Position numbers and translations under genes: made by a program
Shown: piece by piece, positions 644 to 25,089 of the stretch
Numbering within the stretch: the stretch's first letter is position 1
How the letters are laid out: every line of letters begins with the position of its first letter
Assembly: GCA_003222675.1 (NCBI GenBank)
Contig: QHWT01000090.1
Location: 1-64,000, forward strand
Origin: Acidobacteriota bacterium
GTDB taxonomy: Bacteria > Acidobacteriota > Vicinamibacteria > Vicinamibacterales > 2-12-FULL-66-21
Length of the DNA: 64,000 bases
Direction of reading: 5' to 3'
Notes under the pieces: generated by a model
The model's input: the letters and a program-made list of their open reading frames with translations, nothing else
Databases searched by the model: none
Told to the model about the DNA's origin: nothing

Positions 644-2079
644 ATGCGAACACATCCGCATCTTTACGAGATCAGCGCGTGGCCGTGGGTCGATCGACTG
701 TCCCGTCATGGCGATCGCACCGTCACGCTGGCGAACGTTCCGGACGCGGAATGGGACCGCATCGCGCAGGCCGGCTTTGACGTTGTCTACCTGATGGGCG
801 TCTGGCGACGCAGCGCAATTGGCCGATTGATGGCGCGCACCGACCCGGCACTGCTCAGCGAGTACGAGCGAGTGCTGCCCGGCTGGTCGATGAAGGACGT
901 GCCGGGGTCTGCCTACTCCATACAGGCTTACGAGCCGGATGCGCGAATGGGCGGGTGGGACGGGCTGGAGCGCGCGCGCGAGGCGCTGGCACGACGTCAC
1001 GTGTCGCTCGTCCTCGATTTCGTACCGAACCACACCGGCTTCGACCACGAATGGGTGACCGCGCGCCCGGAGCTGTACGTCGAAGCAACGCTCGACGACT
1101 ACCGACGCACGCCGAACAACTTTCATCCGATCGACACTCCGGACGCGGTGCACTTCATCGCGTGCGGCCGCGATCCGTTTTTTCCGCCCTGGCGGGATGT
1201 CGCGCAACTGAATTACTTCAACCCGGCCACACGCGAGGCGATGATCGGCGTGCTCGAGACCATCGCCCAGCACGCCGACGGCGTGCGCTGTGACATGGCA
1301 ATGCTCGTGCTGAACGACGTGTTCCAGCAGACGTGGGGCCACACAATCGATCTGCTGTGGACCACGCCGTCGGAGGAATTCTGGCCCGAGGCGACGCGGC
1401 GCGTCGCCAAGCTCACCTATCTTGCTGAAGTCTATTGGGATCGCGAGTGGCAGTTGCAGCAGCAGGGCTCAGGCTGCATCAGGGATCAGCCAGCGACGTG
1501 CGAGGGCATCTGCAGGCCGATCCATCGTTCAGCGCGAAGCTCGCGCGATTTCTCGAAAACCACGATGAGGCTCGCGCGGCTGCGACGTTCGGGAGCAGGC
1601 TGCAGGCGGCGGTTGCTGTCGCGCTCACGGCACCGGGGATGCGGTTCTACTACGACGGGCAACTCGACGGGGCGGAGACCAAGTCGTCGGTGCAGCTGGG
1701 TCGCTGGCCCGATGAACAGCCCAGCGTCGAGATCCGCGATCTCTATGACCGCATCCTTCGGACGACGAAGAAGGCTCTGTTTCATGATGGCACGTGGGAG
1801 CTGCTCGGCGTGTACGGCGCGGGAAACACGACGTACGACGATCTCGTCGCGTTCTCGTGGCGGAAGGGAAGCGAGCACGCCGTCATTGCCGCGAACGTTT
1901 CGAGTCATGAGGCGCACGGCCTCGTACAGCTTGGGGCGCTGCCGCACGCGCCCGCATTTTCGTTTAACGATCAGCTGTCGGATCAGCGGTATCGCTGGGC
2001 GCGCGAGGACTTGAAGGATGGGCTGTACGTGCGGCTCGCCGCAGGTGCGGCGCACGTGTTTCTGGTGGAACCCGCGTAG
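644..2079 (+). pseudogene. GH13 alpha-amylase-family glycosidase, frameshifted by an internal deletion
   Basis: The first frame runs from ATG 644 and carries GH13 region I (DFVPNHTG), the nucleophile region (GVRCDMA, Asp near residue 217) and the acid/base region (LAEVYWD, Glu near residue 262). After WQLQQQG at about 1468 homology jumps to another frame, which continues with FLENHDE (third catalytic Asp) and runs to the stop at 2079. From memory of the family, about ten residues normally lie between QQQG and LHQG, so a deletion of roughly 30 bp that is not a multiple of three is likely. All three catalytic acids survive but are split between frames. It is either a decaying gene or an assembly error. 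Confidence 0.8.
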
Positions 2080-3563
2080 GCTCGACGGTCATGAAGGCGG
2101 ACCAAAGATCGCCGTTCAGCGCACTGCGCTGTAGGCCGGGTCTTTAGACCCGGCGCCATGAGCCAGCATGAGCCGTGCGTCATTAAGCCGTAAGCCTGTC
2201 GCGTCGCCCCCTCCACTTTTTTCATCGCGGCAACGAAGCGGCGCGGGTCGAAGGCGCTCGGCGATTCGAACTGCTGGAACAGTTCCGCGAACGTTGTTTT
2301 CATCGCCGCGGGATCCTGGCCACGCGCACGCGCGAGAGCCGACGATAACGTCTCTACCGCCATCGCGGCCTGTTCCGCGGCGCGCTCGCCGCGGCCGGCG
2401 ATCCCGGCGGCGTCCGCGAAGATCGCGCGCAGCATGCGCGACGTGGCCTCCGCCGTGGGCGTCGACGCGACCGCGCGCGCGACGCCGCGGTCGACGATCG
2501 CGCGCGCCTGATTCGCGAAGGCAACCACGTCATCTTCCTTCGTTCGCAGCCGGCTTGCTTCGATCACGAGCTTCGGCATGATGGCGTCGAGCTCGGTCGC
2601 CGCTTGCGGATCGAGCGTCTCGAGGACGTGCCGTGCCGTCACCCAGCGTGATACGTTCAACGGCGGGTTGCCGGGTCGGGGCCGCTGCTCGTACCCTTCG
2701 GCCTGGCGCCAGCTGTCTTCGGCGCGCGTGAGGCTGTGATGACACGCGAAGCAATCGAGCTCCGCGTACTCGGGCCAGACGGGCCCTTTCAAGCGCCGCG
2801 CGACGCGATCGAGACTGGATCGCAGGTGGACGAGCTGCCCCACGGCAAATGTTCGCACGAGCCGGAACGCGTCCGCGTCCGGTGATTCGCGCCAGTGACG
2901 CGGCATCGCGGAGCTGAACGCCTCGAGATCGAACACGAGATCGGGATGCCCGGCTGCGATCATTTCGTGATCGACCCACTTCTCAGACGTCCCGAGATGG
3001 CACGTGAGGCACTTGTCGGTCCGCTTCACGAGGTCTTTCGTGTCGTACATCCCGCGGCGGACGGACTCGTCGTGCTTTGCATCCTTCGTCACGTGATAAC
3101 CGAGCCAGCCGGTTGCGGGGCCATGACACGCTTCGCAGCTCACCCCTTCCGTCGTGAAGTTGCGTGCGCGCTGGGCCTCGGGCGCATCGAGGGAATGGCA
3201 CGCGAGACATTTCTGCGCCTGGTCCGGACGGCCGATGCCGAGAATGCGTCCCATGCGGACGGACACGGCATTCGACAGCACATCGGTCGCGCGCGCGTGA
3301 CGATCCTGCGACACCCACGTGCTGTATTCCGTCTGGAGAATCCGGCTGCCGGCGACCGGTCGAATCGATCCGTGACACGCCACCGCGCTGCAGGATCCCG
3401 GACCCGTGAAGTTGCCGGCATCGGCGGCCGAGCTCTGGGCCGCCGTCCTCACGTCGATCGATGCGCTCGTCGATCGAGCGCTCGCCCGGAATGAAATTGT
3501 GAGCACCAGCAGGAACACCGCAGCCGCAACAGCCATCGGAGACACGGACCGCACTCGACGCAT
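1983..3563 (-). CDS. Secreted pentaheme c-type cytochrome
   Basis: Begins with a signal peptide (about residues 1-30). Five haem sites are visible: one CX4CH (CSAVACH, residue 58) and four CXXCH (CLACH 119, CEACH 143, CLTCH 185, CFACH 271). The layout recalls the cytochrome c554-like multihaem family, and a periplasmic electron carrier is likely. Homology-like sequence ends near residue 445 (MKKVEGAT). The last 80 or so residues are translated from a palindromic repeat and then antisense through the end of the GH13 pseudogene, so the native stop seems to have been lost. It is divergent from the NuoEF fusion and probably belongs to the same redox cluster. Confidence 0.8.
   Translation of the reverse strand: MRRVRSVSPMAVAAAVFLLVLTISFRASARSTSASIDVRTAAQSSAADAGNFTGPGSCSAVACHGSIRPVAGSRILQTEYSTWVSQDRHARATDVLSNAVSVRMGRILGIGRPDQAQKCLACHSLDAPEAQRARNFTTEGVSCEACHGPATGWLGYHVTKDAKHDESVRRGMYDTKDLVKRTDKCLTCHLGTSEKWVDHEMIAAGHPDLVFDLEAFSSAMPRHWRESPDADAFRLVRTFAVGQLVHLRSSLDRVARRLKGPVWPEYAELDCFACHHSLTRAEDSWRQAEGYEQRPRPGNPPLNVSRWVTARHVLETLDPQAATELDAIMPKLVIEASRLRTKEDDVVAFANQARAIVDRGVARAVASTPTAEATSRMLRAIFADAAGIAGRGERAAEQAAMAVETLSSALARARGQDPAAMKTTFAELFQQFESPSAFDPRRFVAAMKKVEGATRQAYGLMTHGSCWLMAPGLKTRPTAQCAERRSLVRLHDRRAYAGSTRNTCAAPAASRTYSPSFKSSRAQRYR
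2121..2175. repeat. Palindromic repeat, same family as 160-262
   Basis: Perfect hairpin GCCGGGTCTTTAGACCCGGC at 2135-2154, followed by ATGAGCC words. It lies inside the 3' end of the pentaheme cytochrome frame. Confidence 0.7.
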
Positions 3564-3683: not shown

Positions 3684-5441
3684 TTGCCCGTGCCCCCGCG
3701 TTCGATAGCGACCTCCATTTTCGACGAGCTCCGTGCGATCCAGCGTGCCCACGGCTACCTTCCCGAAGGGGAGTTGCGAACGATCGGGGATCGCCTCGAC
3801 GTGCCGCTCTACCGGCTGCAGGCGGTCGCGAGCTTCTTTCCACACTTCTTCCTGAAGCCGCCGGCGCGCGCTGAAGTGCGTGTGTGCGGCGACATGTCGT
3901 GCCATCGTTATGGAGGCAACGAGCTCCGCGAAACGCTGGCGGCGCGCTTTCAGGGGCAGGACGCCCACATCACGCACGTCTCGTGTCTCGGCCGATGCGA
4001 TCTCGCGCCGGCGATCGCGGTGAACGATCACATCTTCGAACGCACGAGCGAAGCGGAGGCGTCCGCGCTCATCGAAGCCGCGCTCGCCGGCGCATCGCCG
4101 GAACAGCTCGCGACACGCAAGCATCCGCCGCAGCGGACGCCGGTAATGTGCGACCCGTATGTCGCAGGTGATCGGACCTCGGACCTCGAACCTCGGACCT
4201 CGGACCTCGAACCTCTGACCTCGTCTCAGTACGGCGTGCTGCGCACGTACGTGCAGTCGAAGGACTGGCCTGGCCTGATCGCCACGTTGAAAGCGAGCGG
4301 CCTGCGCGGCCTCGGCGGTGCCGGCTTTCCGACGGGTATGAAGTGGGAGCTCGTGCGGAACCAGCCGGGCGACGTGAAATACATCGTCTGCAATGCCGAC
4401 GAGAGCGAGCCGGGCACGATCAAGGACCGGCACATCATGACGAACGCGCCGCATCTGCTCGTCGAGGGGATGATCCTCGGCGGGCTCGTCGCCGGCGCGC
4501 GGCATGGCGTCATCTACATCCGTCACGAGTACACCGATCAGGAACACATCCTGCAGCACGAGATCGATCGCTGCTACCGCGAGGGAATTCTCGGCACCGG
4601 CGTGATGGGATCGGATCTGTCATTTGATCTCGAAGTGTTCGTCAGCCCCGGCCTCTACATCTGCGGCGAAGAGAGCGCGCTGCTGGAAGCGATGGAAGGG
4701 AAACGCGCCGAACCGCGCAACAAGCCCCCTTTTCCCGGTCAGCACGGCGGCGGACTGTGGGGGAAGCCCACGGTCATCAACAACGTCGAGACGTTCTTCT
4801 TCGTGCCGGTGATCCTCGCGCGCGGTCTCGACTGGTTCAAGACCGCCGGGCGCAACGGGTCGGCCGGCGTGAAGTTCGTCGGCGTCAGCGGCGACGTGAC
4901 GCGCCCCGGCGTCTTCGAAGTGCCGATGGGGATTCCGTATCGTGAGCTGATCGAGCAGCTGGCAGGGGGCGTCGCGCCCGGGCGCACGTTCAAATCGTTC
5001 GCACCGTCGGGTCCGGCGGGCGGATTTCTTCCGGCACGGATGGCGGACCTGCCCCTCGACTGGAACGCGATGACGCAGGCGGGCGCCACGGTCGGCTCGG
5101 GCGCCATCGTCGTGTGCGACGACCGCGCGTGCATGCTGGACATGGCGCTGAACGCCGTGCGCTTCTTCCGCAACGAGTCGTGTGGCAAGTGCGTGCCGTG
5201 CCGCGTCGGGTCCGCGAAGCTCACGGATCTGCTGACCGGGTGGACGCGGGGCCGCCGCGGCCCGAACGACATCGCGCTCTACGAGGATCTGTCGCACGCG
5301 ATGCGGCAGACGTCGATCTGCGGTCTGGGACAGGTCGTGCCGGTGCCGATCGCCTCCGTGCTCAAACATTTTCCCGACGAAGTCGACGCGCACGCGAAAG
5401 GCGTCTGCCCGGCAGGCGTGTGCTTCAGGGGCCGCGCGTGA
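3684..5441 (+). CDS. NuoE-NuoF fusion, NADH-oxidising flavoprotein subunit
   Basis: The N-terminal 150 residues are NuoE-like (thioredoxin-fold 2Fe-2S; cysteines in RVCGDMSCH and SCLGRCD). After a linker comes a complete NuoF-like domain with GLGGAGFPTGMKW and NADESEPG (FMN/NADH site), LYICGEESALLE, and the 4Fe-4S ligands ESCGKCVPC plus SICGLGQ. It should oxidise NADH via FMN, as in complex I, HoxF or NAD-dependent formate dehydrogenase diaphorases. Start is TTG 3684 or GTG 3690. The linker contains a 7-bp tandem repeat translated as two copies of RTSDLEP. The stop overlaps the next start (GTGA), so the two are translationally coupled. No hydrogenase or formate dehydrogenase lies nearby. Confidence 0.92.
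   Translation: MPVPPRSIATSIFDELRAIQRAHGYLPEGELRTIGDRLDVPLYRLQAVASFFPHFFLKPPARAEVRVCGDMSCHRYGGNELRETLAARFQGQDAHITHVSCLGRCDLAPAIAVNDHIFERTSEAEASALIEAALAGASPEQLATRKHPPQRTPVMCDPYVAGDRTSDLEPRTSDLEPLTSSQYGVLRTYVQSKDWPGLIATLKASGLRGLGGAGFPTGMKWELVRNQPGDVKYIVCNADESEPGTIKDRHIMTNAPHLLVEGMILGGLVAGARHGVIYIRHEYTDQEHILQHEIDRCYREGILGTGVMGSDLSFDLEVFVSPGLYICGEESALLEAMEGKRAEPRNKPPFPGQHGGGLWGKPTVINNVETFFFVPVILARGLDWFKTAGRNGSAGVKFVGVSGDVTRPGVFEVPMGIPYRELIEQLAGGVAPGRTFKSFAPSGPAGGFLPARMADLPLDWNAMTQAGATVGSGAIVVCDDRACMLDMALNAVRFFRNESCGKCVPCRVGSAKLTDLLTGWTRGRRGPNDIALYEDLSHAMRQTSICGLGQVVPVPIASVLKHFPDEVDAHAKGVCPAGVCFRGRA
4172..4223. repeat. In-frame 7-bp tandem repeat TCGRACC inside the nuoEF fusion
   Basis: About seven units of TCGGACC/TCGAACC, the same units as at 22261-22292, 34461-34501 and 50972-51105. 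Here they are translated as part of the inter-domain linker. Confidence 0.9.
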
Positions 5442-7555
5442 GCGATCAGATCACCCTCACGATCGACGGCCGGGACGTGACGGTCCCGCGCGGGACGACG
5501 ATCTTCGATGCGGCACGGATGAATGGCATCGCGATCCCGACGCTGTGCCACCAGCAGAACCAGACGCCCGTGGGAGTCTGCCGCGTCTGCGTCGTCGACG
5601 TCGGAGCGCGCGTCTACGCGGCGGCGTGTATCCGCGAGTGCGATCCGGGCATGAAAGTGAAGACCGGCACCGAGCCGGTCGTGCGGGCCCGCAACACGCT
5701 CGTCGAGTTGCTCATGGCGGACCACCCGTCGCCGTGCGCGCGCCAGCAGGCGAGCGGCGACTGCGAGCTCGAGGCCATGGCGAAGGCGTCGGGCGTCTCG
5801 GAGGCGCGCTACGCTCGCCGGCTGTCTCCGCGCGGCCGCGACGATTCGTCGCTGAGCATCGCCGTCGATCACGAAGCGTGCATTCTCTGCGATCGGTGCA
5901 TCCGCGGCTGCGACGAGGTCAAGAAGAACCACGTCATCGGCCGCAGCGGACGCGGGTACTCCGCGCACATCGGCTTCGATCTCGATTTGCCGATGGGGAG
6001 CTCGACGTGCGTGTCGTGCGGTGAGTGCATGGTGTCGTGCCCGACGGGCGCGCTGACGAACAAGCGCGTCATCGACGCGCAATTGCCGGGAGAGACACTC
6101 GACCCGGAGTGGATCCTGCAGCTGCCTGTGTTCAAAGGCGTCAGCGGCACATTTCTCGAGTTGAACAAGAGCTCCCTGGTCAAACGGCGGATTGCAGCCG
6201 GCGAGGTGATCTGTCGCGAGGGGGAGTTCGGATCGACGGCGTTTTACATTCTCGAAGGATCGGTCGACGTCTTCATCGGCACGCCCATCGCGCACGTGAA
6301 GCAGGAAGATGCGTCCGCTGGATGGCTCAGCCGGATTCGCAGCCGCCTCGCCGATCGGCAGGAGCACACGCGAACGGAGGAGAGCGGCCGTCGTTTCATT
6401 CCCATCGACGCGCCCGTGGATCTGCCGTACGACAAACCTCTCGCCGAGCTCGGCGCGGGCGAGTTGTTCGGCGAGATGACGTGCATGAGCTTCCACCCTC
6501 GATCCGCAACCGTTCGGGCGAAGACCGAGGTCGTGGTGCTCGAGATGCTCCGGAACGTGCTGGACATTCTCCAGAAGAACAAGACGTTCCGCGCGGAGCT
6601 CGATCGCAAGTACCGCCAGCGCGCGCTCGAAACACATCTCCGCAGCGTGCCGGTGTTCTCCTCGATGCCGGCGGATTTCGTTGATTACCTGCGCGATCGC
6701 GTCGAGCTGAGCCGGTACTCGCCGGGTGAGGTGATCGTGCGGCAGGGAGAGGCCGCCGACGCGTTCTATCTCGTGCGGCTCGGCTTCGTGAAAGTGAGCG
6801 AGCGCCATCCCGGCGGCGAGGTGGTGCTGACGTATCTGGGCCGCGGTTCGTACTTCGGGGAGATGGGCCTGTTAGGCGGCGGTGTGCGTACGGCCACGTG
6901 TACCGCGCTCGATCACGTCGACGTCGTGAAGATTGCCGGCGAAGACTTCCAGTTGATGGTGTCGCGGTTTCCGGATATCCGCGCGGGCCTCGAGAAGGTC
7001 GCGCGCGAGCGCGCGGAACAGAACCGGCAGCGCCTCGCGTCCACCGAGCACGTCCCAATCGATGCCTTCCTGAACCAGGGACTCATGGAAGCGCAGAGTC
7101 TCCTGCTGCTGGACCTGGAGAAGTGCACGCGTTGCGATCAATGCGTGCGCGCGTGTGCGGACGCGCACGACGGCGTGACGCGTCTGGTTCGTGAAGGGCT
7201 GCGATTCGACAAGTACCTCGTCGCGTCGATCCGGCGCCGCAACTCGATGGAGATCATCATCGAGGACTGGTGCATCGGTTGCGGCCTCTGCGTTCGGAAT
7301 TGTCCGTACGGCAACCTCAACCTGCACCCGTTCGAGATCAAGGTCCCCGATCCGGAGAAGCCGAACCGGATGATCGCGACGACCAGGAAGAAGGCGACCG
7401 GTTGCGATCTGTGCATGGAACATGCGGAGCCGAGCTGCGTGTATGCGTGCCCGCACGACGCCGCGCACCGCGTCGAGCCGCTCGCGTTCTTCGGGACGAT
7501 GTCCGCGGTGAAAGATGGGAAGCGGACGGGTTCTACCGAGGCAACGAGCAAATGA
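5438..7555 (+). CDS. NuoG-like ferredoxin, two cyclic-nucleotide-binding domains and a polyferredoxin fused
   Basis: A 705-residue fusion. Residues 1-80 form a 2Fe-2S ferredoxin (C37, C48, C51 and about C65). Next is a degenerate NuoG-type His/Cys motif (HPSPCARQQASGDCEL) in which one expected Cys is replaced. Then come two 4Fe-4S motifs (CILCDRCIRGC, CVSCGECMVSC). Two CRP-like cyclic-nucleotide-binding domains follow, at about 225-375 (FGEMTCMSF) and 405-530 (FGEMGLLGG). The C-terminus has HybA/DmsB-like clusters (CTRCDQCVRAC, CIGCGLCVRNC, CDLCMEHAEPSCVYAC). It has no signal peptide. GTG 5438 is chosen because it overlaps the nuoEF stop and the ferredoxin starts immediately; an upstream extension would only be nuoF antiphase. 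It likely takes electrons from the NuoEF protein and hands them to the membrane protein at 7620, with possible gating by a cyclic nucleotide. Confidence 0.9.
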   Translation: MSDQITLTIDGRDVTVPRGTTIFDAARMNGIAIPTLCHQQNQTPVGVCRVCVVDVGARVYAAACIRECDPGMKVKTGTEPVVRARNTLVELLMADHPSPCARQQASGDCELEAMAKASGVSEARYARRLSPRGRDDSSLSIAVDHEACILCDRCIRGCDEVKKNHVIGRSGRGYSAHIGFDLDLPMGSSTCVSCGECMVSCPTGALTNKRVIDAQLPGETLDPEWILQLPVFKGVSGTFLELNKSSLVKRRIAAGEVICREGEFGSTAFYILEGSVDVFIGTPIAHVKQEDASAGWLSRIRSRLADRQEHTRTEESGRRFIPIDAPVDLPYDKPLAELGAGELFGEMTCMSFHPRSATVRAKTEVVVLEMLRNVLDILQKNKTFRAELDRKYRQRALETHLRSVPVFSSMPADFVDYLRDRVELSRYSPGEVIVRQGEAADAFYLVRLGFVKVSERHPGGEVVLTYLGRGSYFGEMGLLGGGVRTATCTALDHVDVVKIAGEDFQLMVSRFPDIRAGLEKVARERAEQNRQRLASTEHVPIDAFLNQGLMEAQSLLLLDLEKCTRCDQCVRACADAHDGVTRLVREGLRFDKYLVASIRRRNSMEIIIEDWCIGCGLCVRNCPYGNLNLHPFEIKVPDPEKPNRMIATTRKKATGCDLCMEHAEPSCVYACPHDAAHRVEPLAFFGTMSAVKDGKRTGSTEATSK

Positions 7556-7619: not shown

Positions 7620-8498
7620 ATGATCATCGACCGCAGCCATCGGTCGTGGGCCGTCGCGAGCGCCGCGATTCTCATTGTCGCGCTCGCCGCGTACGTGCCG
7701 TACGCAGTTGGCTCGCCGCGAGTGGGTGGTGGCACGACACTGGGTCTCGCATACGGGATCGTCGGCTTCGGTTTCATGGCGTTCGTCACCCTGCTCAGCC
7801 TGCGGAAGAAATTTCCGATCTGGCGCATCGGGCGGACGCAGACCTGGATGCGCGGGCATCTCTGGCTCGGGGCGTTGAGCCTGCCGCTGATCCTGCTGCA
7901 CGCCGGATTTTTGTTCGGGCACGGTCTCGCGTCCGTTCTCATGTGGCTGTTCGCCGTTGTGTATGCGAGCGGCATCTGCGGCGCATGGCTGCAGCACACC
8001 ATGCCCCGCCGGATCCTGCGCGACGTGCCGATGGAAACGATTTACGAGCAGATCGGCCACGTCCGCGCGCAGCTCGTCGATGAGGCGGACAGGCTTGTTG
8101 CCGACGCGTCCGGGCGCCTCGAGGTAGCGGTTCCGCCTGCGGCATCCGGCGCGACGGTGCTGGCGACGGTGATGCGCGTCGACGCGGACGTGACGGCGCC
8201 GCTGCGCGAGTTCTACGTGCACGAGATGCGACCGTTCGTGCAGGCGCCGTCGCGCAGCCATCCGCTCGCGAATGAGACCAGCGCCGCCGGGCGCTTCGAG
8301 AAGCTGCGTCCGCTGCTGCCGGTATCGCTGCACGCCGCCGTCGCGGATCTCGAAAGCATCTGCGAGGAAGAACGGCAGTTGATGCGGCAGGCGCGGATGC
8401 ACGGCGTCCTGCACGCGTGGCTGCTCGTGCACGTGCCGTTGTCATTTGCCCTGATGGCGCTGGCGATCGCGCATATCATCGGCGCGCTGAGATACTGA
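7620..8498 (+). CDS. Integral membrane b-type-cytochrome-like protein
   Basis: About 292 residues. Hydrophobic segments lie at about 9-31, 37-57, 78-98, 101-121 and 265-290. Histidines fall in or next to the helices (RGHLWLG, LLHAGF, HAWLLVH, AIAHI), which suits two haem-b groups bridging the membrane. A soluble stretch sits between helices four and five. No strict family was recognised; ferric-reductase-like or cytochrome b561-like folds are the closest impressions. It lies between a cytoplasmic Fe-S protein and a periplasmic decaheme, so a transmembrane electron-transfer role is inferred. Its stop overlaps the next ATG by one base (TGATG). Confidence 0.75.
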   Translation: MIIDRSHRSWAVASAAILIVALAAYVPYAVGSPRVGGGTTLGLAYGIVGFGFMAFVTLLSLRKKFPIWRIGRTQTWMRGHLWLGALSLPLILLHAGFLFGHGLASVLMWLFAVVYASGICGAWLQHTMPRRILRDVPMETIYEQIGHVRAQLVDEADRLVADASGRLEVAVPPAASGATVLATVMRVDADVTAPLREFYVHEMRPFVQAPSRSHPLANETSAAGRFEKLRPLLPVSLHAAVADLESICEEERQLMRQARMHGVLHAWLLVHVPLSFALMALAIAHIIGALRY

Positions 8499-9826
8499 TG
8501 CGCATCCGTACGGCGAAGATGCTCGCGGAGCGGATCGATCTCAATTACTTCAAGCGCGCGCCTGCGCTGCGCCGCTGGAGGTACATTCTTTCAATTGCGA
8601 TTCCTGCGATCGCGGTGCTGTGGATCGCGGGGTATGCCGCAGCGGGCATCCGCAGGCCCTACAGCGCCGGACCTGTTTCGAGCGCGCACGCCTTTGCCGA
8701 GATGAAATGCGAGGTGTGCCACACCTCCGCGAACGCGCCTGCCGGCTTCCGCGCGCACGTCTCCGAGAAGGCGTGCCTCACGTGCCATGATGCGCCGGCG
8801 CACGTTGTGAATCAGACGCCGTCGCCCGCGTGCGTGAACTGTCACGTCGAGCACAGCGGACGCGTCCAGTTGGCGAAGGTGGGCGACGGTCTGTGCGTGG
8901 ATTGTCATGGCGATCTGAAAACCATGCAAGGCGCGCCCGCGATATCGACCACGGTGGGTCGATTTGGCTCCCGACACCCGGAATTCGCGGCGGCACGCGA
9001 GGGCGCGAAGGATCCCGGGACGATCAGGTTCAACCACGCGCTGCACATGACAAAGGATGGCGTCCGCAGTTTGAGAGGCATTGAAATCCTGCAGTGCACG
9101 GACTGCCACAAAGCCGCGCGCATCCTTCCGCCTCAAGGCGGCAGCCACGAGCTACGCGTTGGCCTGATGAGCGCCGCCAACTACCAACAGAACTGCGCAC
9201 GGTGCCACGGCCTCGAGTTCGATTACCGCATCGAGCAGCCGGCGCCGCACGACAAGCCTGAGGCCGTGCGTGCTGCCGTGCGTACGGCGCTCCAGAACTA
9301 CATTGCCGCGCATCCGAGCGAGATCATCAAGCCTGACGATCCGCGGCGGCTGCCGCTGAATTTCCCACCCGCAGCAGAGCCGCCGGCGCGCAACGCGACC
9401 GAATGGGTTGCCAGGCGCGCGGATAATGGCGAACGCCTCCTGTGGTCGCGCTGCGATGTCTGTCACGCGAGGACCGGAACGGTGACAGTCACAGTTCCGC
9501 AAGCTCAGCCTGTCGCGGATCCGCGACGAAGTGTGACTGTCACCGTTTCTGTCCCCGCGTTTGCGGCATCTCATATCGCGACGCGCTGGATGGTCCGCGC
9601 GGCGTTCGACCATACGCCGCACCTGATGCTGCAGTGCGTGGACTGTCATGCCGCGGAGAACAGCCAGCTGACCTCCGACATCCTCATGCCGAAGCAGGCG
9701 ACATGTGCCACGTGCCACGCGCCGTCCAGGGGCGCCGAGGCGCGCTGCTTCGAATGTCATCAGTACCACGATTGGCGCAAGTCACACGCGGTCAGCCCCG
9801 CGTTCAAGCTGACGGATTTCAGGTAA
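8498..9826 (+). CDS. Membrane-anchored decaheme c-type cytochrome
   Basis: About 442 residues with one N-terminal membrane anchor (about residues 28-48, no clear cleavage site) and ten CXXCH sites: CEVCH, CLTCH, CVNCH, CVDCH, CTDCH, CARCH, CDVCH, CVDCH, CATCH, CFECH. A periplasmic electron carrier tethered to the inner membrane is the natural reading. It is translationally coupled to the upstream membrane protein. Between haems seven and eight the protein contains a Thr/Val-rich insert (TVTVTVPQAQ...SVTVTVSVP) encoded by a palindromic repeat. The Fe-S/b-type/decaheme order supports electron export from the cytoplasm. Confidence 0.9.
   Translation: MRIRTAKMLAERIDLNYFKRAPALRRWRYILSIAIPAIAVLWIAGYAAAGIRRPYSAGPVSSAHAFAEMKCEVCHTSANAPAGFRAHVSEKACLTCHDAPAHVVNQTPSPACVNCHVEHSGRVQLAKVGDGLCVDCHGDLKTMQGAPAISTTVGRFGSRHPEFAAAREGAKDPGTIRFNHALHMTKDGVRSLRGIEILQCTDCHKAARILPPQGGSHELRVGLMSAANYQQNCARCHGLEFDYRIEQPAPHDKPEAVRAAVRTALQNYIAAHPSEIIKPDDPRRLPLNFPPAAEPPARNATEWVARRADNGERLLWSRCDVCHARTGTVTVTVPQAQPVADPRRSVTVTVSVPAFAASHIATRWMVRAAFDHTPHLMLQCVDCHAAENSQLTSDILMPKQATCATCHAPSRGAEARCFECHQYHDWRKSHAVSPAFKLTDFR
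9476..9556. repeat. In-frame copy of the 58-bp palindromic repeat inside the decaheme gene
   Basis: Arms GGTGACAGTCACAGTTCCG and CGAAGTGTGACTGTCACC frame a variant loop. The arms correspond to the four intergenic copies at 16258-16398 and 20161-20280, whose arms are GGGGACACTCACACTTCG and its inverse. Confidence 0.8.
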
Positions 9827-9894
9827 GGCGGAATGCCGAATGCGCGGCCGCACGCGAGGCGGAGCGAAGACATAAAAGAAACGGAGAAAGAGTC

Positions 9895-10968
9895 ATGAAA
9901 GCGATCGTCGTCAGGCCGGGGGAACGCGACAGCATCCACATGCGCGACATGCCGGATCCAAAGATGAAGCCGGACCAGGTCGCCGTGAAGATGCTGCGCG
10001 TCGGGTTGTGCGGGACCGACGCCGAGATCAATCACGGCCTCTACGGCAAGCCGCCTGACGGTGACGAGTTCCTGATCCTCGGCCACGAGAACCTCGGGGT
10101 GGTCGAGGACGTCGGGAAGAAGGTCAAGGGCTGGAAAGCGGGCGACCTCGTGGTCTCCACCGTGCGCCGGCCGTGCGGCGTGTGTCCGCAGTGCAAGTCG
10201 GGCGAGAACGACATGTGCAGCAGCGGCCAGTACACCGAGCGGGGCATCATGCGTCGCCACGGCTTCATGGCGCAGTACTACGTCGAGTCGCCGCAGTTCC
10301 TGAACAAGATCCCGAAGCCGGTGCGCGACTTCGCCGTCCTGCTCGAGCCGATGTCGGTCGTCGAGAAAGGAATCGACCACGCGTTCCTGCTCCAGCGGCG
10401 CACGACCTGGAAGCCGAAGTTCGGCATGGTGCTTGGCGGCGGACCCGTCGGCCTGCTCGCGGCCGCGGTGCTCCGTGCGCGCGGGCTTCGCACGCTCGTC
10501 ATCGGACGGGAAGAGGCCAACGACCTGCGCGCCCAGATCTCGAAGCAGCTCGGCGCGCAATATCTCTGCGTCGCGAACAAGGCGCTTCCTGACGTGCCGA
10601 AGGAAACGGGTTATCCCGACCTCGTAATCGAAGCGACGGGCAGCGCGAAAGTCGTGTTCGATGCAATGGAGATCCTGGGCCCGAACGGCGTCCTCTGTCT
10701 GCTCAGCGTGACGGGCGGCCAGACACAGAATCAGGAGCCGATCGATCTCATCAACCAGCGCCTCGTACTCGGTAACCAGGTCGTCTTCGGCAGCGTGAAC
10801 GCGAATCCACGCCACTTCGCGATGGGCGTCAAGGACTTCGTAACGATCGACAAGAAGTGGCCGGGCACGCTGAGCCGCCTGCTGACGAATCGGATTCCGT
10901 GGCAGGACCACAAGTCATGGTTCAACGAGCGCGGGAGCGGGATTAAATCGACACTCGAAATATCCTAG
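9895..10968 (+). CDS. Zinc-dependent MDR dehydrogenase, glucose 1-dehydrogenase type
   Basis: A 357-residue medium-chain dehydrogenase. It has the catalytic-zinc motifs LCGTDAE and LGHENLG, the four-Cys structural-zinc lobe (CGVCPQCKSGENDMC), a Rossmann motif (LGGGPVGLLA) and the extended C-terminus typical of archaeal-type glucose dehydrogenases. It would oxidise an aldose with NAD(P)+. The ATG at 9895 has GGAGAAAG upstream. It follows the redox operon by 68 bp in the same direction and might supply NADH to it, but that link rests only on position. Confidence 0.85.
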   Translation: MKAIVVRPGERDSIHMRDMPDPKMKPDQVAVKMLRVGLCGTDAEINHGLYGKPPDGDEFLILGHENLGVVEDVGKKVKGWKAGDLVVSTVRRPCGVCPQCKSGENDMCSSGQYTERGIMRRHGFMAQYYVESPQFLNKIPKPVRDFAVLLEPMSVVEKGIDHAFLLQRRTTWKPKFGMVLGGGPVGLLAAAVLRARGLRTLVIGREEANDLRAQISKQLGAQYLCVANKALPDVPKETGYPDLVIEATGSAKVVFDAMEILGPNGVLCLLSVTGGQTQNQEPIDLINQRLVLGNQVVFGSVNANPRHFAMGVKDFVTIDKKWPGTLSRLLTNRIPWQDHKSWFNERGSGIKSTLEIS

Positions 10969-11077
10969 GGTTCACGGTTCACGGTTCACGGTTCACGGTT
11001 CACCGGTTCACGGTTCACGGTTCACGGTTCACCGGTTCACCGGTTCACGGTTCACGGTTCACCGGTTCACGGTTCCG
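10969..11077. repeat. Tandem 7-bp repeat TTCACGG
   Basis: About 14 consecutive units of TTCACGG with occasional 8-bp TTCACCGG variants, between the dehydrogenase stop and the decayed permease. Confidence 0.95.
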
Positions 11078-11080
11078 GAT

Positions 11081-12173
11081 TCACCCTCTCAGCGCAACGA
11101 CAGGATCCACACGCAGCGCGCGTCTCGCGGGCAGCCAACTCGCGAGGAGCGCGACGCCGAGCAGCGTGCCCGCAGACATTATCCACGCCAGCGGGTCCCA
11201 GGGGCTGATCGCGTACAACACCGTAGTCAGTGCACCGACGTGCGCAGCTCGTCGCTGCTGTACCTCGCGCCTGACAGCGGCAGTTCCGCGGTAGCACACG
11301 ATCGGCATCGAATCCTGGTGAGACCCGCTGCAGCCGCGCGAAGCTCCTGACCAGCAGCGCCGCGCCGATCGTCAGCACAATCGTCAGCGCGATCTCCGCG
11401 ACGACCAGCCCGGCGCGTGCGCGCCGCTGGCACACGCCGCCGCTCATGCCGGACCGCCTTGCTTCATTGAGCGCTTCGCGCACGTCGACCCGGACGGACT
11501 GGAACGCGGGCAGGAGCCCGAAGAGCACACCCGCCGCGAGCGCAACGCCAAACGTGAAGATGACGACCCGGGTGTCGACCACCACGGCATCGACCCGCGC
11601 GGAAGCGTCGATCTTCTGAAACAAGCGGAGTCGGACGGGAAGGACGCCGATGATCGTGGCCGCACGCCCGTCGAGCAGCACGCGCTCACCGAGCACGGCG
11701 CGCCCGCCGAACCGCGCCTGCCACACGCCGTGACTCAGGATCACGACCGCCTCGCCACCCGGTTTGTCTTCGTCGGCGGAAAACGTGCGGCCAATCTCCG
11801 GAGCGACGCCCAGCATCGGCAGCACGTTCGCGCTGAGCATCTTGGGAGTGACGCGCTGCGGCTCGTCGCCGCCACTCATGTTCAGTCGTGTTGCGGAACG
11901 CGCCGCACGCCTGGAGCGACCGCGCGTCGGCGCACACATCGCGATAGTTTTCCGCCCGACAGCGAGAGCAGCGGGAACTGCGGCGGCGTGTGCTCGTTGA
12001 TCATGACGACGCGATCGGCGTCGTGAAAGGGAAGCGGCCGCAACATGACGGGTCGACGACGCTGAAGATCGCGGACGTGGCGCCGACGCCAAGCGCGATG
12101 TCAGAACGGCGATGCTGGTGAAGCCAGGCTGCTTGAGCAGCGCGCGAAACGCCAGACGGAATTCGCGAATCAC
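11081..12173 (-). pseudogene. MacB/FtsX-like ABC transporter permease, deleted and frameshifted
   Basis: Starts with the hallmark FRLAFRALLKQPGFT N-terminus of acidobacterial duplicated permeases, then shifts frame within about 30 residues. Recognisable pieces follow: a MacB periplasmic segment (EIGRTFSADEDKPGG, VILSHGVWQARFGG), an FtsX helix segment, and in another frame the C-terminal LPARRALRVDPVVALRG. Intact relatives are about 800 residues (compare 40205-42676), so half or more is missing. It is non-functional. Confidence 0.85.
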
Positions 12174-12494
12174 CTCGCCAGCGTAGTCGGCGTATGCGAG
12201 AGCGTCAACGCGCGTAGGGCGGTGTTCCAGCGTCGTACCTTTGTGTGCCGTGATGGAACAAACGAATGCAATGTCCTACGGCTCATTGATTTACGCGCAA
12301 AAACTCCCTCGAATGCAGTCAATTGTGTTCCATAACTAGCCATCCTTACGCAAGCGTGCGGCCGCGAAGGCCCTAAAGGCCGTTCAGATAATCCCTACCA
12401 AGTCAGCTATTTGGGCAGTCCTGCCGCCTCCATGAGCAGCTGGACTGTTCCTTGCCAAGACCCTGATGCCGGTTAAACGCGGACACTACTGATT
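12174..12494. other. 321-bp intergenic leader region
   Basis: No protein frame is credible. A GGCC-CTAAA-GGCC hairpin near 12368-12381 lies upstream of the peptidase gene. It may be a regulatory leader, but no known riboswitch could be matched. Confidence 0.3.
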
Positions 12495-14222
12495 ATGAAG
12501 AGAACCATTGGTCCCTTTGGCGCATCCCTCGTCGCACTGCTGGCGGCATTGGCTGTCTCTGTGTCGGGTCAGCACGGCCCGACGCTCTCGCCCGACCTTG
12601 CCGCGCATCCGGCAGGCCATCGCGGGCACCGGATCATCGTGCAGGCGGACCCGAGCGCCCTGGCTGCGCTGCGCGGCCACGGGCTCGGCGTACTGCGGCG
12701 CCAGGTTCAGGGCGCGCTCGCGATGGAAGTGTCCGACGAGCAGCTCGAGGCGCTGTCCCGTAATCCGGCGATCGCGCACATCTCCGGTGACCTGCGGGTG
12801 TTCGGCGATATGGCCGTCACCAACAAGGTGACCGGCGCGAGCACCGTCTGGCAGGGCACGAGTGGCCTTCTCGGTATCGGCGGCACGCCGGGTTACCGCG
12901 GCAGCGGGATCGGTGTCGCGGTGCTCGACTCGGGCATCGGTTCGCACAACGCGCTCGGCACGCGGGTGACGGCGCACGTGAATTTCGTGTCGGGCGAGCC
13001 GGGGGTCACAGGCGATCCGTACGGCCACGGCACGCACGTCGCGGGTATCGCCGGCGGAGACGGCAGCGCGGCGAAAAACGTGACCTCGGCGTACAGCGGT
13101 GGCAGCGCGCCGGCGATCAATCTGATTGACGTGCGCGTGCTGGGCCGCGACGGTTCCGGTCTGACGAGCGATGTCATCGCGGGCATCGACTGGGTAGTCG
13201 CGAACCGCAACAAGTACAACATTCGCGTCGTCAATCTCTCGCTGGGGCATCCGGTGACGGAACCCTCAGCGTCCGATCCGCTGGACCAGGCGGTCCAGCG
13301 CGCCGTGGCACAGGGCATTGTCGTTGTCGCGGCGGCGGGCAACTACGGGCAGACGGCGACCGGCGCCCCCATTTTTGGCGGCGTGACCTCGCCGGGCAAT
13401 TCGCCGTATGCGATCACGGTCGGCGCGATAGATGCGAACGGCAGCGCTGACACGTCCGACGACACGATCGCGCCATATAGCTCGCGTGGTCCCACGAGGT
13501 ACGATCTCGCCGTCAAGCCGGACGTGGTCGCGCCCGGCACACGCATCGTCTCCCTCGAGGCCTCCAAGTCGTATCTCAGCACGACCTACCCGCAATGGCA
13601 TGTGGCCGGCAAGGGAACCAACGCGTATCTGCGCCTGAGCGGGACGAGCATGGCAACGCCGGTCGTCAGCGGCGGCATCGCGCTGCTGCTGAACGCGCAG
13701 CCCTCGTTGTCGCCAGCGCAGGTGAAGATGGCGCTGCAGATGGGCGCGCGGTATTCGGCCAGCGGCGGCCTCCTCGGCGGGGGCACCGGCACGGTGAATT
13801 TCCCGCAGACGCTGACGATCGCGCAGAACGGGCTCGTTCCCAACCTGCTGAACACGGTGGGCAACGTGCTCGGCGCAGGCTCCGGCGCCGCGTTCCGCGA
13901 CGACGGGTCAATGACGGATCGCCTTTACTACGGGACGGGCCTGCGCCGGTTGAGCATTCTCGATCTCGGATGGCTGTTCCAGGGGGCCGACAAGGCGGAC
14001 TGGGGCGTGCTGAACCTGCTCGGCCTCACGAATCCGCTCGCGTCGACGCCCGCGAAGCGGCTGCTGTGGGGCGAGGTCGCGGACTGGATCCCCGGCGATT
14101 ACTGCACGTGGGGCGATTCGATTCGGAGCCCGTCGGGCCAGGTCGTCGTCTGGGGCAGCGGCGATTACGTCGACGCTGACGTCGTCGTGTGGGGCAGCTC
14201 CGTGGTGAAGGACGGGCGGTAG
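12495..14222 (+). CDS. Secreted S8 (subtilisin-type) serine peptidase
   Basis: A 575-residue protein with a signal peptide (about residues 1-25), an I9-like propeptide region (about 45-105) and a full subtilase domain: Asp145 in AVLDSGI, His178 in GHGTHVAG, oxyanion Asn in AAAGNYG and Ser385 in SGTSMATP. The roughly 180-residue C-terminal region ends in Trp-Gly-rich strands (VVWGSGD, VVWGSSV) of unknown role. It is extracellular or periplasmic and likely degradative. The next gene begins one base after its stop, so co-transcription with the HD-GYP protein is probable. Confidence 0.92.
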   Translation: MKRTIGPFGASLVALLAALAVSVSGQHGPTLSPDLAAHPAGHRGHRIIVQADPSALAALRGHGLGVLRRQVQGALAMEVSDEQLEALSRNPAIAHISGDLRVFGDMAVTNKVTGASTVWQGTSGLLGIGGTPGYRGSGIGVAVLDSGIGSHNALGTRVTAHVNFVSGEPGVTGDPYGHGTHVAGIAGGDGSAAKNVTSAYSGGSAPAINLIDVRVLGRDGSGLTSDVIAGIDWVVANRNKYNIRVVNLSLGHPVTEPSASDPLDQAVQRAVAQGIVVVAAAGNYGQTATGAPIFGGVTSPGNSPYAITVGAIDANGSADTSDDTIAPYSSRGPTRYDLAVKPDVVAPGTRIVSLEASKSYLSTTYPQWHVAGKGTNAYLRLSGTSMATPVVSGGIALLLNAQPSLSPAQVKMALQMGARYSASGGLLGGGTGTVNFPQTLTIAQNGLVPNLLNTVGNVLGAGSGAAFRDDGSMTDRLYYGTGLRRLSILDLGWLFQGADKADWGVLNLLGLTNPLASTPAKRLLWGEVADWIPGDYCTWGDSIRSPSGQVVVWGSGDYVDADVVVWGSSVVKDGR

Positions 14223-16398: not shown

Positions 16399-19300
16399 TC
16401 ATCGCGGCGGATCGTTTGTGACGGTGAACACCTTGCCGTCGCGCAGGTACAGTCTCTCCATGTCCGCCTTGTTGAACGGCCGCGCGCCGCGACGGCCGAA
16501 AACGGCGAGCTGATTGCCGCTTTCATCAACCGCGCGGTCGCGATCGATGCCTTCCGAGATCATCAGCGCGTCGTGCATCGGGTAGTGCGCGATCAGCGTG
16601 GGCGTGGGGTGCGGGCTGAAGCCGAGATAGTTCGGGTTGTCTGAAGGCGAGAAGAGCTGCACCACCTGCAGGCCGTTATGCCCGTCCGCGATGTAGGCAA
16701 ACTGACTGGCGTTCGTCATGCCGATCTTCACGTCGTTCGTGTCGTTGATTGCCCCTCCCGCATTGAACGTCTGTGCCAGCGTCGGCTGCTCGGGCCGTTC
16801 GATGTCGACGATGCCGATGCCATCGGGGCCGGCGGCGACATAGGCGTACGTGCGCGCCACGTAGAGATTGCGCGCGTCCTTGAACGGCACGCGCGCGCCG
16901 CTGACAAGGCGCGGCTTGTCCAGCGCGGTCACGTCGAGCACCTTCAGCCCGTCCCGATCCACCACGAAGCCGTAGCGAAACTGGATTTGCACGCCGCGCG
17001 GCTCGACGAGATCGGGGGCGCCGATCTGCGCCGTCACTTTCGGATGGAATGGATCCTCGAGTGAGACGACAACGAGCGCCTTGCCGGTCAGGATGTACGC
17101 ATACGTGCCGGCGATCGTAATGCGGCGCCCGCCCGTGAGGACGCCGTCGGGATTGAACGTGACGGCGCGTTCGAGGAAGTTGTTCGATGGGTTGCCATCG
17201 AGGAGCGTGCCGACGCCGATGATGTTCCGGCTCTTGGGATCCCTGTTGCCAACGACGATCAGCCCCTCTTCCCGGTCGATGACGTAGAGCAATCCGTACA
17301 ACACGTGGATCTTCTGTTCCTCGTTCTCCGGACGCTGCGAGCGCAGCGGGTCCACGCCGAGCGTGGTCGGCGTCGCGATCGCAGCTGCAAATTTCGTCTT
17401 GACATAGAGCCGCTGCCCGAGCGGTGACACCGGCGCAGTGACGATCGGTTCGCTGAAATCCTTGTTGTCGATGTTCGCGATGTCGTAGATGCGGAAGCCG
17501 CCTTTGCCCAGCGCCGCGTAGAGGTATTCTCCACGCTGCTGCACGTCCAGCACGTTTTCACCCGGATGGTGATGCGCGTGTGGGAGCTCGAGTTTGCGCT
17601 TCTCGTGCTTCTCGTATTCCTCGGGATACGCGAGCTTGTGCAGGTGGCTCCCGATGATCGCGGGCGGCTCGTCGCGTTCGGCGACGGCGACTCCCTCGAA
17701 GCCCTCTCTGCCGTCAGCCACCCAGATGTTGTGGCCCATGAAGTTCATGAAGTTGGTGCCCTGCAGCGTCACGTTCGCGATCCAGGCGTTGTTGCTGCCG
17801 TCGGCCGCGACGTGGCAGTCGGTGCACGTCTTCGTTTCCTTCGCGCGCACGGTGTGAGGCACGAAGGTGCTGAATGCCTGGCCGCTGAATCCTTCGGCGG
17901 AGACCGTCTGCTGCATGTAGTAAAGCCAGTCGCGCGACTGATTCTGGGAGCTGACGAGAATCGCGCATGCGGAACGCACCGGCGCGACACGGTTGTTCGT
18001 AACCGTGCCGTCGCGGCCGAGGAAGAATGAATCATCGCGCAGCACCTGGAAGTTGTATGCCGTCCAGTTGCGCGTCGCGAGCCCCTCGTTGTGCAGCATC
18101 GGCATCTTGCGGTTCGCCACCATCGAGAGATGACAGCCGAAGCACGTCGGCGTCCACGACGTGTGGCACGCGTAGCACGTCATCGAGCTGTTCGCGTGCG
18201 CGAGCGTGTCCGCTGCCGCGACCAATCCCCACGTCGTCCCGTCACGCTGGATTGTCTTCGCGCGCCGCGACTTGTCCGAGTAGTGCGATGCGCCCGGCGT
18301 GATCGTATCGACCGTCTGCACGACTTCCCATTTCAGATTCGGATCCAGCATGGACCGCTGGAAGAGCGTGTCCCCCTCCCAGTAGAAGCGGCGCTCGCGC
18401 CACGGCGTTCGCAGCGCGGCGAGCGCGGTACCACCCGCAGGCGCCGCGGGTCCGCTCGTGATCAGCGTCGCACGCCGTTCGATGGATCCGTGGCAATCCA
18501 CGCAGTCGATTTCAACGGCATTGCGCGTCTCGCCGTACAGCCTGCCGTTCCCGTGGTTGTCCTGATTGAAATGGCAGTCGATGCACTGCATGCCTTTCTC
18601 GAGGTGGATGTCTTTCAGATGCACCGCCTTGCCGAAGCGATCCGGATCGTCGTGGGGGACGACCCTGTCGTCGCCGTCGAGCAGGTTGCCGCGGCGATCG
18701 CGCTTGTAGACCGCGCGGAATACCCAGCCGTGGCCGTGGAAGTCGGCAAACTGCGTGTGCTGCAGCTGCCTGTTGAATTGCGGCGTGCCGATCTGGCCAA
18801 GGAATTTCTCGTCGCCCCACTTGCCGCGAAGCGCCGACTGCTCCGGGTTGCGCGAACGAATCTCGAGCCGGTCCTTATCCGAGAGATCCTTCTGCGCTGC
18901 GGGATACATGAATTCACCGTCGGTCTCGTTCTCCCACCAGGTGTAGCCGTAGTACGTCGTGACCATGTTCGTTCCCGGATGCACGTGGCACGTCATGCAC
19001 TGGCTCGACGGAATGGAGCGTGTGAACGTGTGCCTGATCGGATGTCCGGGCTGCGTGCGCTCGGGATCGATCGTGGGATCGAGCGTCGCGGTGCGGCCGT
19101 CGTTGCCGAACTGCGCGTACTGACCGGAGTGATCCGGCGATCGATCGTTGGCATAAACGACATGACAGGCGGTGCAGCCGCTATTGCGATAGTCGCCAGG
19201 TTGATCGTTGGTGCCGGGAAACGACAGCAGCGGATCGAGCAGCCGTGTCTTCTGCAGTCCCAGGAACACGGGATCGGTCCGCAGCAGCGTCCCAAAGCCG

Positions 19301-20154
19301 CGATCGCTCAGCTTCGCATCGGGACGGCCCGGATCCTCGTTGCGCGTGGGGTTACCGATCTCGCCGCGCTTGCTGCCGCCACGCTCGAACACGCGCAGCA
19401 CGTTGCCCGGCTGCGTAATCTCCCAGCGTGGCAGCGGCTCGAGCCAGGGCAGCCATCCTTTTGTCCGGGTTTCCTCCGGCGTGGGTGCCGGAAATGCCTG
19501 CAGCCGCTGCGGCGTGCCGTCGGGCGCATAGCTCTCGCCGTAGCGCGCGTTCTTGTACGGCGCGGCGCCATTGTTGTAGAGCGCCGCCTGCCACAACATC
19601 GCGCCCGTCGTCATCATGCTGGTGCGCACGTTGCGCACTTCCGCCGCGTGGCACGAGCCGCACGTTTTGTCGGCGACTCGAAGATCGCCGGGATTGACGA
19701 ATTGCACGTACGCAGGCGACTCTTCCAGCCATTCGGTGTAGGGACGGATCGCGTTCGCCGAGCTCTTGAAGAGCTCCTTGTTTCGTGGGAGCACGTGCGC
19801 CTTGCGCCTGGCCTCGTCGTACTCTTTCGAGTCCGCGGCGAGCCCGCTTGCGATCGTGACGGCAGGATCGCCGCCATGACAATCCGCGCATCCGATCGTC
19901 ACCGTGCCGCCGGGATGCATCGACGCTTCGTCGGTCTTGGTGTGGCAGGTGATGCAGCCGGCGCTCTGCCTGGCAGCGTCTTCGGATCCGTGTTGGATCG
20001 CCGGGGGTGAACCCAACACGCTCGACCTGAAGGTCGGGCCTACTGGTGGTGGGATTGCAGGGGATCGCCCCGCCGCGTTTGCACCCCATACCAACGTCAC
20101 CGTCCATCCAATTGCGGCCATCGTGACTGCGCGCATGGCATTGGTCATATGCAT
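16399..20154 (-). CDS. Decaheme cytochrome fused to an LVIVD-type beta-propeller
   Basis: 1,251 residues with an N-terminal signal peptide ([17 protein letters not shown]...ANA). Ten CXXCH sites fall between residue 67 (CITCH) and about 795: CITCH, CADCH, CGSCH, CTACH, CMTCH, CIDCH, CVDCH, CYACH, CFGCH, CTDCH. Residues from about 880 to 1,200 are LVIVD-like propeller blades ([35 protein letters not shown]). The residues just after the signal peptide (about 33-48) come from an inserted palindromic repeat. It is encoded just downstream of a predicted outer-membrane barrel, the arrangement expected of a porin-cytochrome conduit. Its substrate is unknown; soluble electron acceptors or a surface terminal reductase are both possible. 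Confidence 0.85.
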
Positions 20155-25061: not shown

Positions 25062-25089
25062 GTGGTCGGGTATTATCTGCGGGCCGCGC

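Follow-up and report, generated by a model that had tools for sequence, protein, structure and literature searches.

The window analysed here is a 64,000-nucleotide (nt) stretch of contig QHWT01000090.1 from an Acidobacteriota bacterium (assembly GCA_003222675.1). On its forward strand, at positions 5438 to 7555, lies a gene for a 705-residue protein in which two tandem cyclic nucleotide-binding (CNB) domains stand between an N-terminal iron-sulfur (Fe-S) head and a C-terminal polyferredoxin foot. Our favoured explanation, which taken as a whole we regard as evenly poised between acceptance and doubt, is that this fusion protein would be the central Fe-S subunit of a cyclic AMP (cAMP)-gated NADH:cytochrome complex.

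An Fe-S protein built around two CNB domains

The fusion gene and its parts are as follows (positions are those of the window):
5438..7555, forward strand: fusion gene, HoxU/NuoG-like head, CNB1, CNB2 and polyferredoxin foot, 705 residues (exact open reading frame, Pfam)
5438..6082, forward strand: HoxU/NuoG-N-like head, residues 1-215 (domain, family and motif comparison)
6116..6640, forward strand: CNB domain 1, residues about 227-401, with cassette FGEMTCMSFHPRSAT at residues 344-358 (cNMP_binding, cassette conservation)
6638..7057, forward strand: CNB domain 2, residues about 401-540, with cassette FGEMGLLGGGVRTAT at residues 473-487 (cNMP_binding at 426-508)
7058..7552, forward strand: polyferredoxin foot with three Cys motifs, C563-C573, C612-C622 and C656-C671 (Pfam, alignment)
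7225..7226, forward strand: junction of an in-frame 54-nt deletion relative to the family, 18 residues with CxxCxxxxCxxxC (alignment)

The reading frame opens with a GTG codon at 5438 and closes with a stop codon at 7553-7555; the GTG overlaps the stop (TGA) of the upstream NuoEF gene, which ends at 5441. At least 115 relatives came out of a scan that took one genome per species; 80 of them, all with the same domain order, were retained for analysis. Against the two closest homologues, the ratio of non-synonymous to synonymous substitution rates (dN/dS) is 0.12-0.14 overall and 0.10-0.13 in the foot, values which indicate that the gene is under purifying selection. Given these ratios and the relatives in other species, the frame is not a chance one. 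Most relatives occur in Acidobacteriota, with Planctomycetota sequences at 47-53% identity and others in metagenome-assembled genomes (MAGs) labelled Rokubacteria, Methylomirabilota and Actinobacteria. Mis-binning probably explains some of these taxon labels; a locus labelled 'Bordetella' (L073) falls inside Bryobacterales in the tree.

Pfam places Fer2_4 at residues 3-78 (E 9e-19), NADH-G_4Fe-4S_3 at 85-124, Fer4_Nqo3 at 141-207, two cNMP_binding stretches (E 5e-38) and a 4Fe-4S dicluster domain at 559-675. This bears out the order given in a preliminary description of the window, namely two CRP-like sensor domains between two sets of Fe-S clusters. The head contains 2Fe-2S ligands C37, C48, C51 and C64 and two 4Fe-4S motifs, C148-C158 and C191-C201; the nearest matches of the first 215 residues are HydA1 (7q4v, E 8e-44) and the HoxU model (E 9e-57).

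A His/Cys site is found in the head with the spacing H96-x3-C100-x2-Q103-x5-C109. It lacks the His-Cys3 ligation of an N5-type cluster, one Cys being exchanged, usually for Gln, across the family: among 80 sequences the second-Cys position holds Gln in 65, Glu in seven, His in four and Asn in four. Residues His96, Cys100 and Cys109 are retained in 75 of the 80, and the remaining five, all from planctomycetes, are without the whole site. The Gln noted in the preliminary description is therefore real, but its interpretation as a ligand lost in this protein fails, and local loss at Gln103 was ruled out because Gln is the family norm. What sets this copy apart is instead the 54-nt deletion in the foot, which that description overlooked, as it did the gene cluster and the wider family with its exchanged input modules. 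The site could hold a three-ligand cluster or one with oxygen or nitrogen ligation.

Partner genes of a predicted transmembrane complex

Four genes around the fusion gene recur with its relatives, and a fifth lies 6.6 kb downstream of the cluster:
1983..3563, reverse strand: pentaheme c-type cytochrome, c554-like, with four CXXCH and one CX4CH motifs and an N-terminal hydrophobic segment (Cytochrome_C554, E 2e-9)
3684..5441, forward strand: NuoE-NuoF (HoxF-like) fusion, predicted NADH-oxidising subunit with flavin mononucleotide (FMN) and Fe-S clusters (Pfam, conservation)
7620..8498, forward strand: membrane subunit, probably a diheme cytochrome b (invariant H80/H94 and H271/H285, HX13H twice)
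8498..9826, forward strand: decaheme c-type cytochrome with ten CXXCH motifs and one N-terminal hydrophobic helix (Cytochrome_C7)
16399..20154, reverse strand: probable associated ten-heme LVIVD-repeat protein, 1251 residues

Near the fusion relatives (about 83 loci), a NuoEF homologue was found at 79, one of the membrane protein at 76, one of the decaheme protein at 74 and one of the pentaheme protein at 63. In Planctomycetota the gene order differs and most cluster genes are again present. NuoEF comprises 2Fe-2S_thioredx, Complex1_51K, SLBB and NADH_4Fe-4S domains; its eight cluster Cys residues are invariant in 72 sequences and its flavin and NADH motifs are largely conserved, as befits a diaphorase.

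The four His residues of the membrane subunit are invariant, also in the distant variants from Sphingobium and from genome G002. Its AlphaFold model is of good quality (predicted local distance difference test, pLDDT, 89.8), and comparison of the model with solved folds gave no significant match, so that it is from the His pattern that the subunit is called a probable diheme cytochrome b. Weak DUF4405, b561 or Ferric_reduct signals were seen in some of its relatives.

The decaheme gene starts at a TGATG overlap and keeps ten CXXCH motifs in 66 of 72 homologues. The pentaheme gene is divergent from the cluster, and its 4+1 heme motifs are present in 62 of 63 homologues. A multiheme protein of about 1200-1400 residues with 7-10 CXXCH motifs is encoded at 22 loci of the window's class, and also near L117, L118 and L092; all four of the large multiheme proteins that were scanned contain LVIVD repeats. 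Such a protein may form the end of the wire. From these parts, the window is likely to encode a transmembrane complex leading from NADH to periplasmic cytochromes.

The CNB pockets and their probable ligand

The preliminary description called for a look at the phosphate-binding cassettes, and neither pocket proved degenerate: the Gly-Glu pair and the Arg occur in each domain, with Glu and Arg conserved in both. In CNB1, which carries an insert of about 50 residues between strands, L343-M350 and P354-A357 are invariant (81/81) and the cassette Arg (Arg355) is likewise retained in all 81. CNB2 aligns with CNB-B of PKG and keeps Glu475 in 80 of 81 sequences and its cassette residue Arg484 in 79. 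The best Foldseek match of the pair is PKG I beta with cGMP (4z07).

At 17 of 81 loci of the window's class (type 1, defined below), a class III cyclase gene was found in the flanks. Five arrangements occur, which fall on different branches in the gene tree: a convergent gene following the decaheme gene; a divergent one upstream; one beyond the pentaheme gene, as in Granulicella aggregans; an FHA-GAF-cyclase upstream; and a GAF-cyclase in a planctomycete. In the cultivated G. aggregans (L075), where an intact homologue of the fusion gene lies at 8001-10160, the cyclase gene is a few kilobases from the cluster. PF00211 was confirmed in six representatives. The metal-binding Asp, the ATP-type Lys and the Asn/Arg motifs were found in most linked cyclases, exceptions including L080, where they were not read. 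About 0.3 linked cyclases would be expected by chance (several of these genomes have about 0.3 per Mb, and the flanks total 1.05 Mb), an expectation that cyclase-rich genomes, such as one MAG with 27, would raise. With the five arrangements counted as single events, the Poisson probability is about 2e-5, or 0.004 if 1.0 were expected.

Because cyclase genes adjoin the cluster, a cyclic nucleotide is a likely ligand, and we consider binding by the CNB pair to be probable. The cassettes and the linked cyclases together point to a 3',5'-cyclic mononucleotide, probably cAMP, rather than cyclic di-GMP (c-di-GMP), for which there is no support.

The only class III cyclase gene of the window genome (G000:C6:107677-110737, L096) has another gene for a CNB-domain protein about 2 kb away.

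A core shared by several input modules

Among 396 sampled Acidobacteriota genomes, 50 proved to carry the CNB-CNB-polyferredoxin core; sixteen core regions of this wider family were read. In type 1, to which the window belongs, the input module is NuoEF with the HoxU head. Some cores have no input module at all; type 2 likewise has none, and an octaheme c554-like cytochrome adjoins its core; in type 3, found on a Sphingobium plasmid, a pyridine-nucleotide oxidoreductase domain is fused N-terminally to the core; and in type 4 the core and the membrane subunit form one chain. Whatever the input, the core is accompanied by a multiheme cytochrome and by a membrane part belonging to one and the same family. 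This variation of the input module supports a view of the core as a valve plus wire that would be fed from different sources.

At the type-4 loci L125, L126, L127, L128 and L130, the single chain is 837-1068 residues long and lies beside multiheme proteins with 7-10 CXXCH motifs. On Sphingobium herbicidovorans plasmid pMSHV (L092), positions 7735-12910 encode an oxidoreductase-CNB-CNB-polyferredoxin protein, a cytochrome b-like membrane protein and a decaheme cytochrome, the N-terminus of which has a weak FHA-like match (Yop-YscD_cpl).

Among the genomes with a core of a type other than 2, cassette exceptions were seen in G068, with His in place of the CNB1 Arg, and in G326, where no cassette was found by pattern; the pockets of four of these 39 genomes were not read. 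The core genomes found to be without a class III cyclase (G067, G351 and G050) are all of type 2, the class whose cassettes, in the members read, have lost a canonical Arg; this loss counts in favour of the mechanism proposed below.

Proposed mechanism and alternatives

We infer assembly of the complex, the direction of electron flow, ligand binding and gating from domain content, conservation, synteny and cyclase linkage. In our reading, an NADH:cytochrome redox complex would span the membrane, with the fusion protein as its central Fe-S subunit on the cytoplasmic side. Electrons from NADH would enter through the FMN and Fe-S clusters of NuoEF, pass to the 2Fe-2S and 4Fe-4S clusters of the HoxU-like head, and cross the hinge formed by the tandem CNB domains to reach the polyferredoxin foot. 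From there they would be passed to the two b hemes of the membrane subunit, the decaheme cytochrome and then the pentaheme cytochrome, perhaps with the large LVIVD multiheme protein beyond. The ligand of the CNB pair would be a 3',5'-cyclic mononucleotide, with cAMP the likeliest, and could in many relatives come from a cyclase encoded beside the cluster. By altering the distance between head and foot, its binding would gate electron flow post-translationally.

That ligand binding gates electron flow seems to us an even call. Gating, which the preliminary description suggested for a nucleotide or another small ligand, is nevertheless the best-supported reading, for a cyclic mononucleotide and not for c-di-GMP. 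More tentatively, with confidence slightly short of even, we suggest that cAMP, often from an adjoining cyclase, opens or closes the path between the two Fe-S sets, as a modular valve that serves several input modules in at least two phyla.

Several observations weigh against this proposal. No cyclase gene was found in the DNA examined at 64 of the 81 type-1 loci, and the single class III cyclase gene of the window genome is on another contig. The genome-level association (a class III cyclase in each of the 39 genomes whose core is not of type 2 vs 214 of 357 others) is confounded by phylogeny and genome size and is not relied on here. AlphaFold gave a weak model of the fusion (pLDDT 64; predicted template modelling score, pTM, 0.42), from which neither the head-foot geometry nor pocket closure can be read. 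Lastly, the 54-nt deletion, which follows residue 596, removes a complete CxxCxxxxCxxxC motif from the foot of the window copy.

This deletion is the basis of one alternative, in which the window gene would be a decaying or misassembled copy without function, a serious possibility that we nonetheless hold to be somewhat less probable than its opposite. The lost motif is whole in 78 of the 79 relatives covering the site, the remaining one having a single Cys replaced by Trp, and it is intact in the two closest, L008 (on the same contig as L089) and L090; the window copy may therefore be defective or misassembled. With three motifs, it does not have the four (16 Cys in the foot) of a DmsB/HybA-type ferredoxin. 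In ferredoxins of that fold, two clusters are as a rule shared between the motif lost here and the one that follows it, so that two foot clusters may be affected and the wire may be impaired in the window genome. Against decay, the gene is otherwise full-length, with dN/dS of 0.10-0.14, foot included, and all partner genes in the window are intact. Since the gene appears to be under purifying selection, the deletion would be recent, tolerated or an assembly error. This alternative bears on the window copy and does not speak against the family.

The remaining alternatives concern the family. In one of them the NADH-to-cytochrome complex is the same, but its CNB pair would serve dimerisation or act as a structural spacer, or would sense something other than a cyclic nucleotide, such as a nucleoside, as in trypanosome PKA-R. 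We judge this unlikely, albeit with real points in its favour: nucleoside-binding trypanosome PKA-R structures are among the Foldseek matches, and the type-2 sister class retains both domains after loss of the canonical cassette Arg in the members read, so the CNB fold can persist without canonical binding. Its difficulty is that cassettes of the window's class are retained almost without exception and that cyclase genes are linked to the cluster. Electrons might also flow in reverse, with periplasmic multihemes reducing NAD+, driven by the membrane potential and controlled by the CNB pair. The parts leave the direction unfixed, and NuoEF-type modules are reversible, as in HoxFU; however, multihemes of the low-potential c7/c3 type as a rule take up electrons from donors at the level of NADH, and the conserved cluster has no periplasmic electron-donor enzyme, which makes reverse flow improbable. 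Still more remote is an ordinary subunit of a hydrogenase, formate dehydrogenase or complex I with an incidental fusion. The first third of the protein does match HoxU, NuoG and HydA, but whole-protein scores fall far under the curated family cut-offs (FeFe_hydrog_A6, 223 of 765 bits; HoxU, 192 of 333; NuoG, 119 of 470), the conserved neighbours are multiheme cytochromes, and a separate NuoG-like frame exists at G000:C36. Membership of a hydrogenase or of complex I was ruled out on the scores and the multiheme neighbourhood.

Comparison with described systems

The HoxU/NuoG N-terminal module and HydA1, working with a NuoEF/HoxF diaphorase, share with the window the Fer2-(His/Cys)-2x[4Fe-4S] head and an adjacent NuoE and NuoF gene. 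Unlike the fusion protein, they end after the head, lack CNB domains and have Cys where the window family mostly has Gln; the conserved cluster, for its part, contains no hydrogenase or complex I partner genes. The Hmc, Tmc and DsrMKJOP complexes of sulfate reducers combine a cytoplasmic Fe-S protein, a membrane cytochrome b and a periplasmic multiheme c in one gene cluster. The window likewise encodes an Fe-S protein, a diheme-b-type membrane subunit and multiheme c proteins together, whereas those complexes lack an NADH diaphorase head and CNB domains, and the window membrane subunit, without a significant solved match, may be of a family other than HmcC, HmcE or TmcC.

PKA-R and PKG resemble the fusion in their two tandem CNB domains with cassette Glu and Arg; they regulate a kinase, whereas the pair in the window joins two Fe-S modules and has the extra insert in CNB1. 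Type-3 loci (Sphingobium plasmids and Acidobacteriota) share the core, a diheme-b-like membrane protein and a decaheme cytochrome, differ by a flavin oxidoreductase domain that replaces the HoxU head and NuoEF, and are uncharacterised as far as we found. In Shewanella, Crp is reported to control NADH dehydrogenase or outer-membrane cytochrome genes (PMC12210985, PMC4417206). This control also ties a CRP-family cyclic-nucleotide sensor to NADH dehydrogenases or cytochromes, but it is transcriptional, whereas here the sensor would lie inside the electron carrier.

Neither the fusion nor the cluster was found described in the literature searched, which left most subscription journals outside, and no paper found there joined cyclic nucleotide-binding with multiheme proteins. 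The preliminary description likewise knew of no enzyme with this layout.

Other genes in the window

Another gene with a CNB domain lies at 25009-26190 on the forward strand, encoding an aquaporin/MIP domain followed by a C-terminal CNB domain with a canonical cassette. It is possibly a cyclic-nucleotide-controlled water or glycerol channel; a literature search found no paper on an aquaporin/MIP-CNB fusion. An alpha-amylase-like gene at 644-2079, forward strand, has a frame apparently broken near 1435, with two overlapping frames that together resemble one protein; either a frameshift or an error in sequencing could account for the break.

Implications

The predicted complex, carried by soil bacteria, is apparently undescribed; its halves have known relatives in diaphorase modules, Hmc/Tmc-like complexes and tandem CNB regulators. 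The analysis suggests a likely role for a large unnamed family and draws attention to what may be a membrane cytochrome b as yet unclassified. The idea is testable in cultivated G. aggregans, with its cyclase gene near the cluster. Cyclic nucleotides act on bacterial respiration via transcription; direct control of a respiratory wire by a second messenger would, to our knowledge, be a new kind of regulation if the proposed cAMP gating is true. The CNB pair within an electron carrier would then provide fast allosteric control of respiration in some of the commonest soil bacteria.

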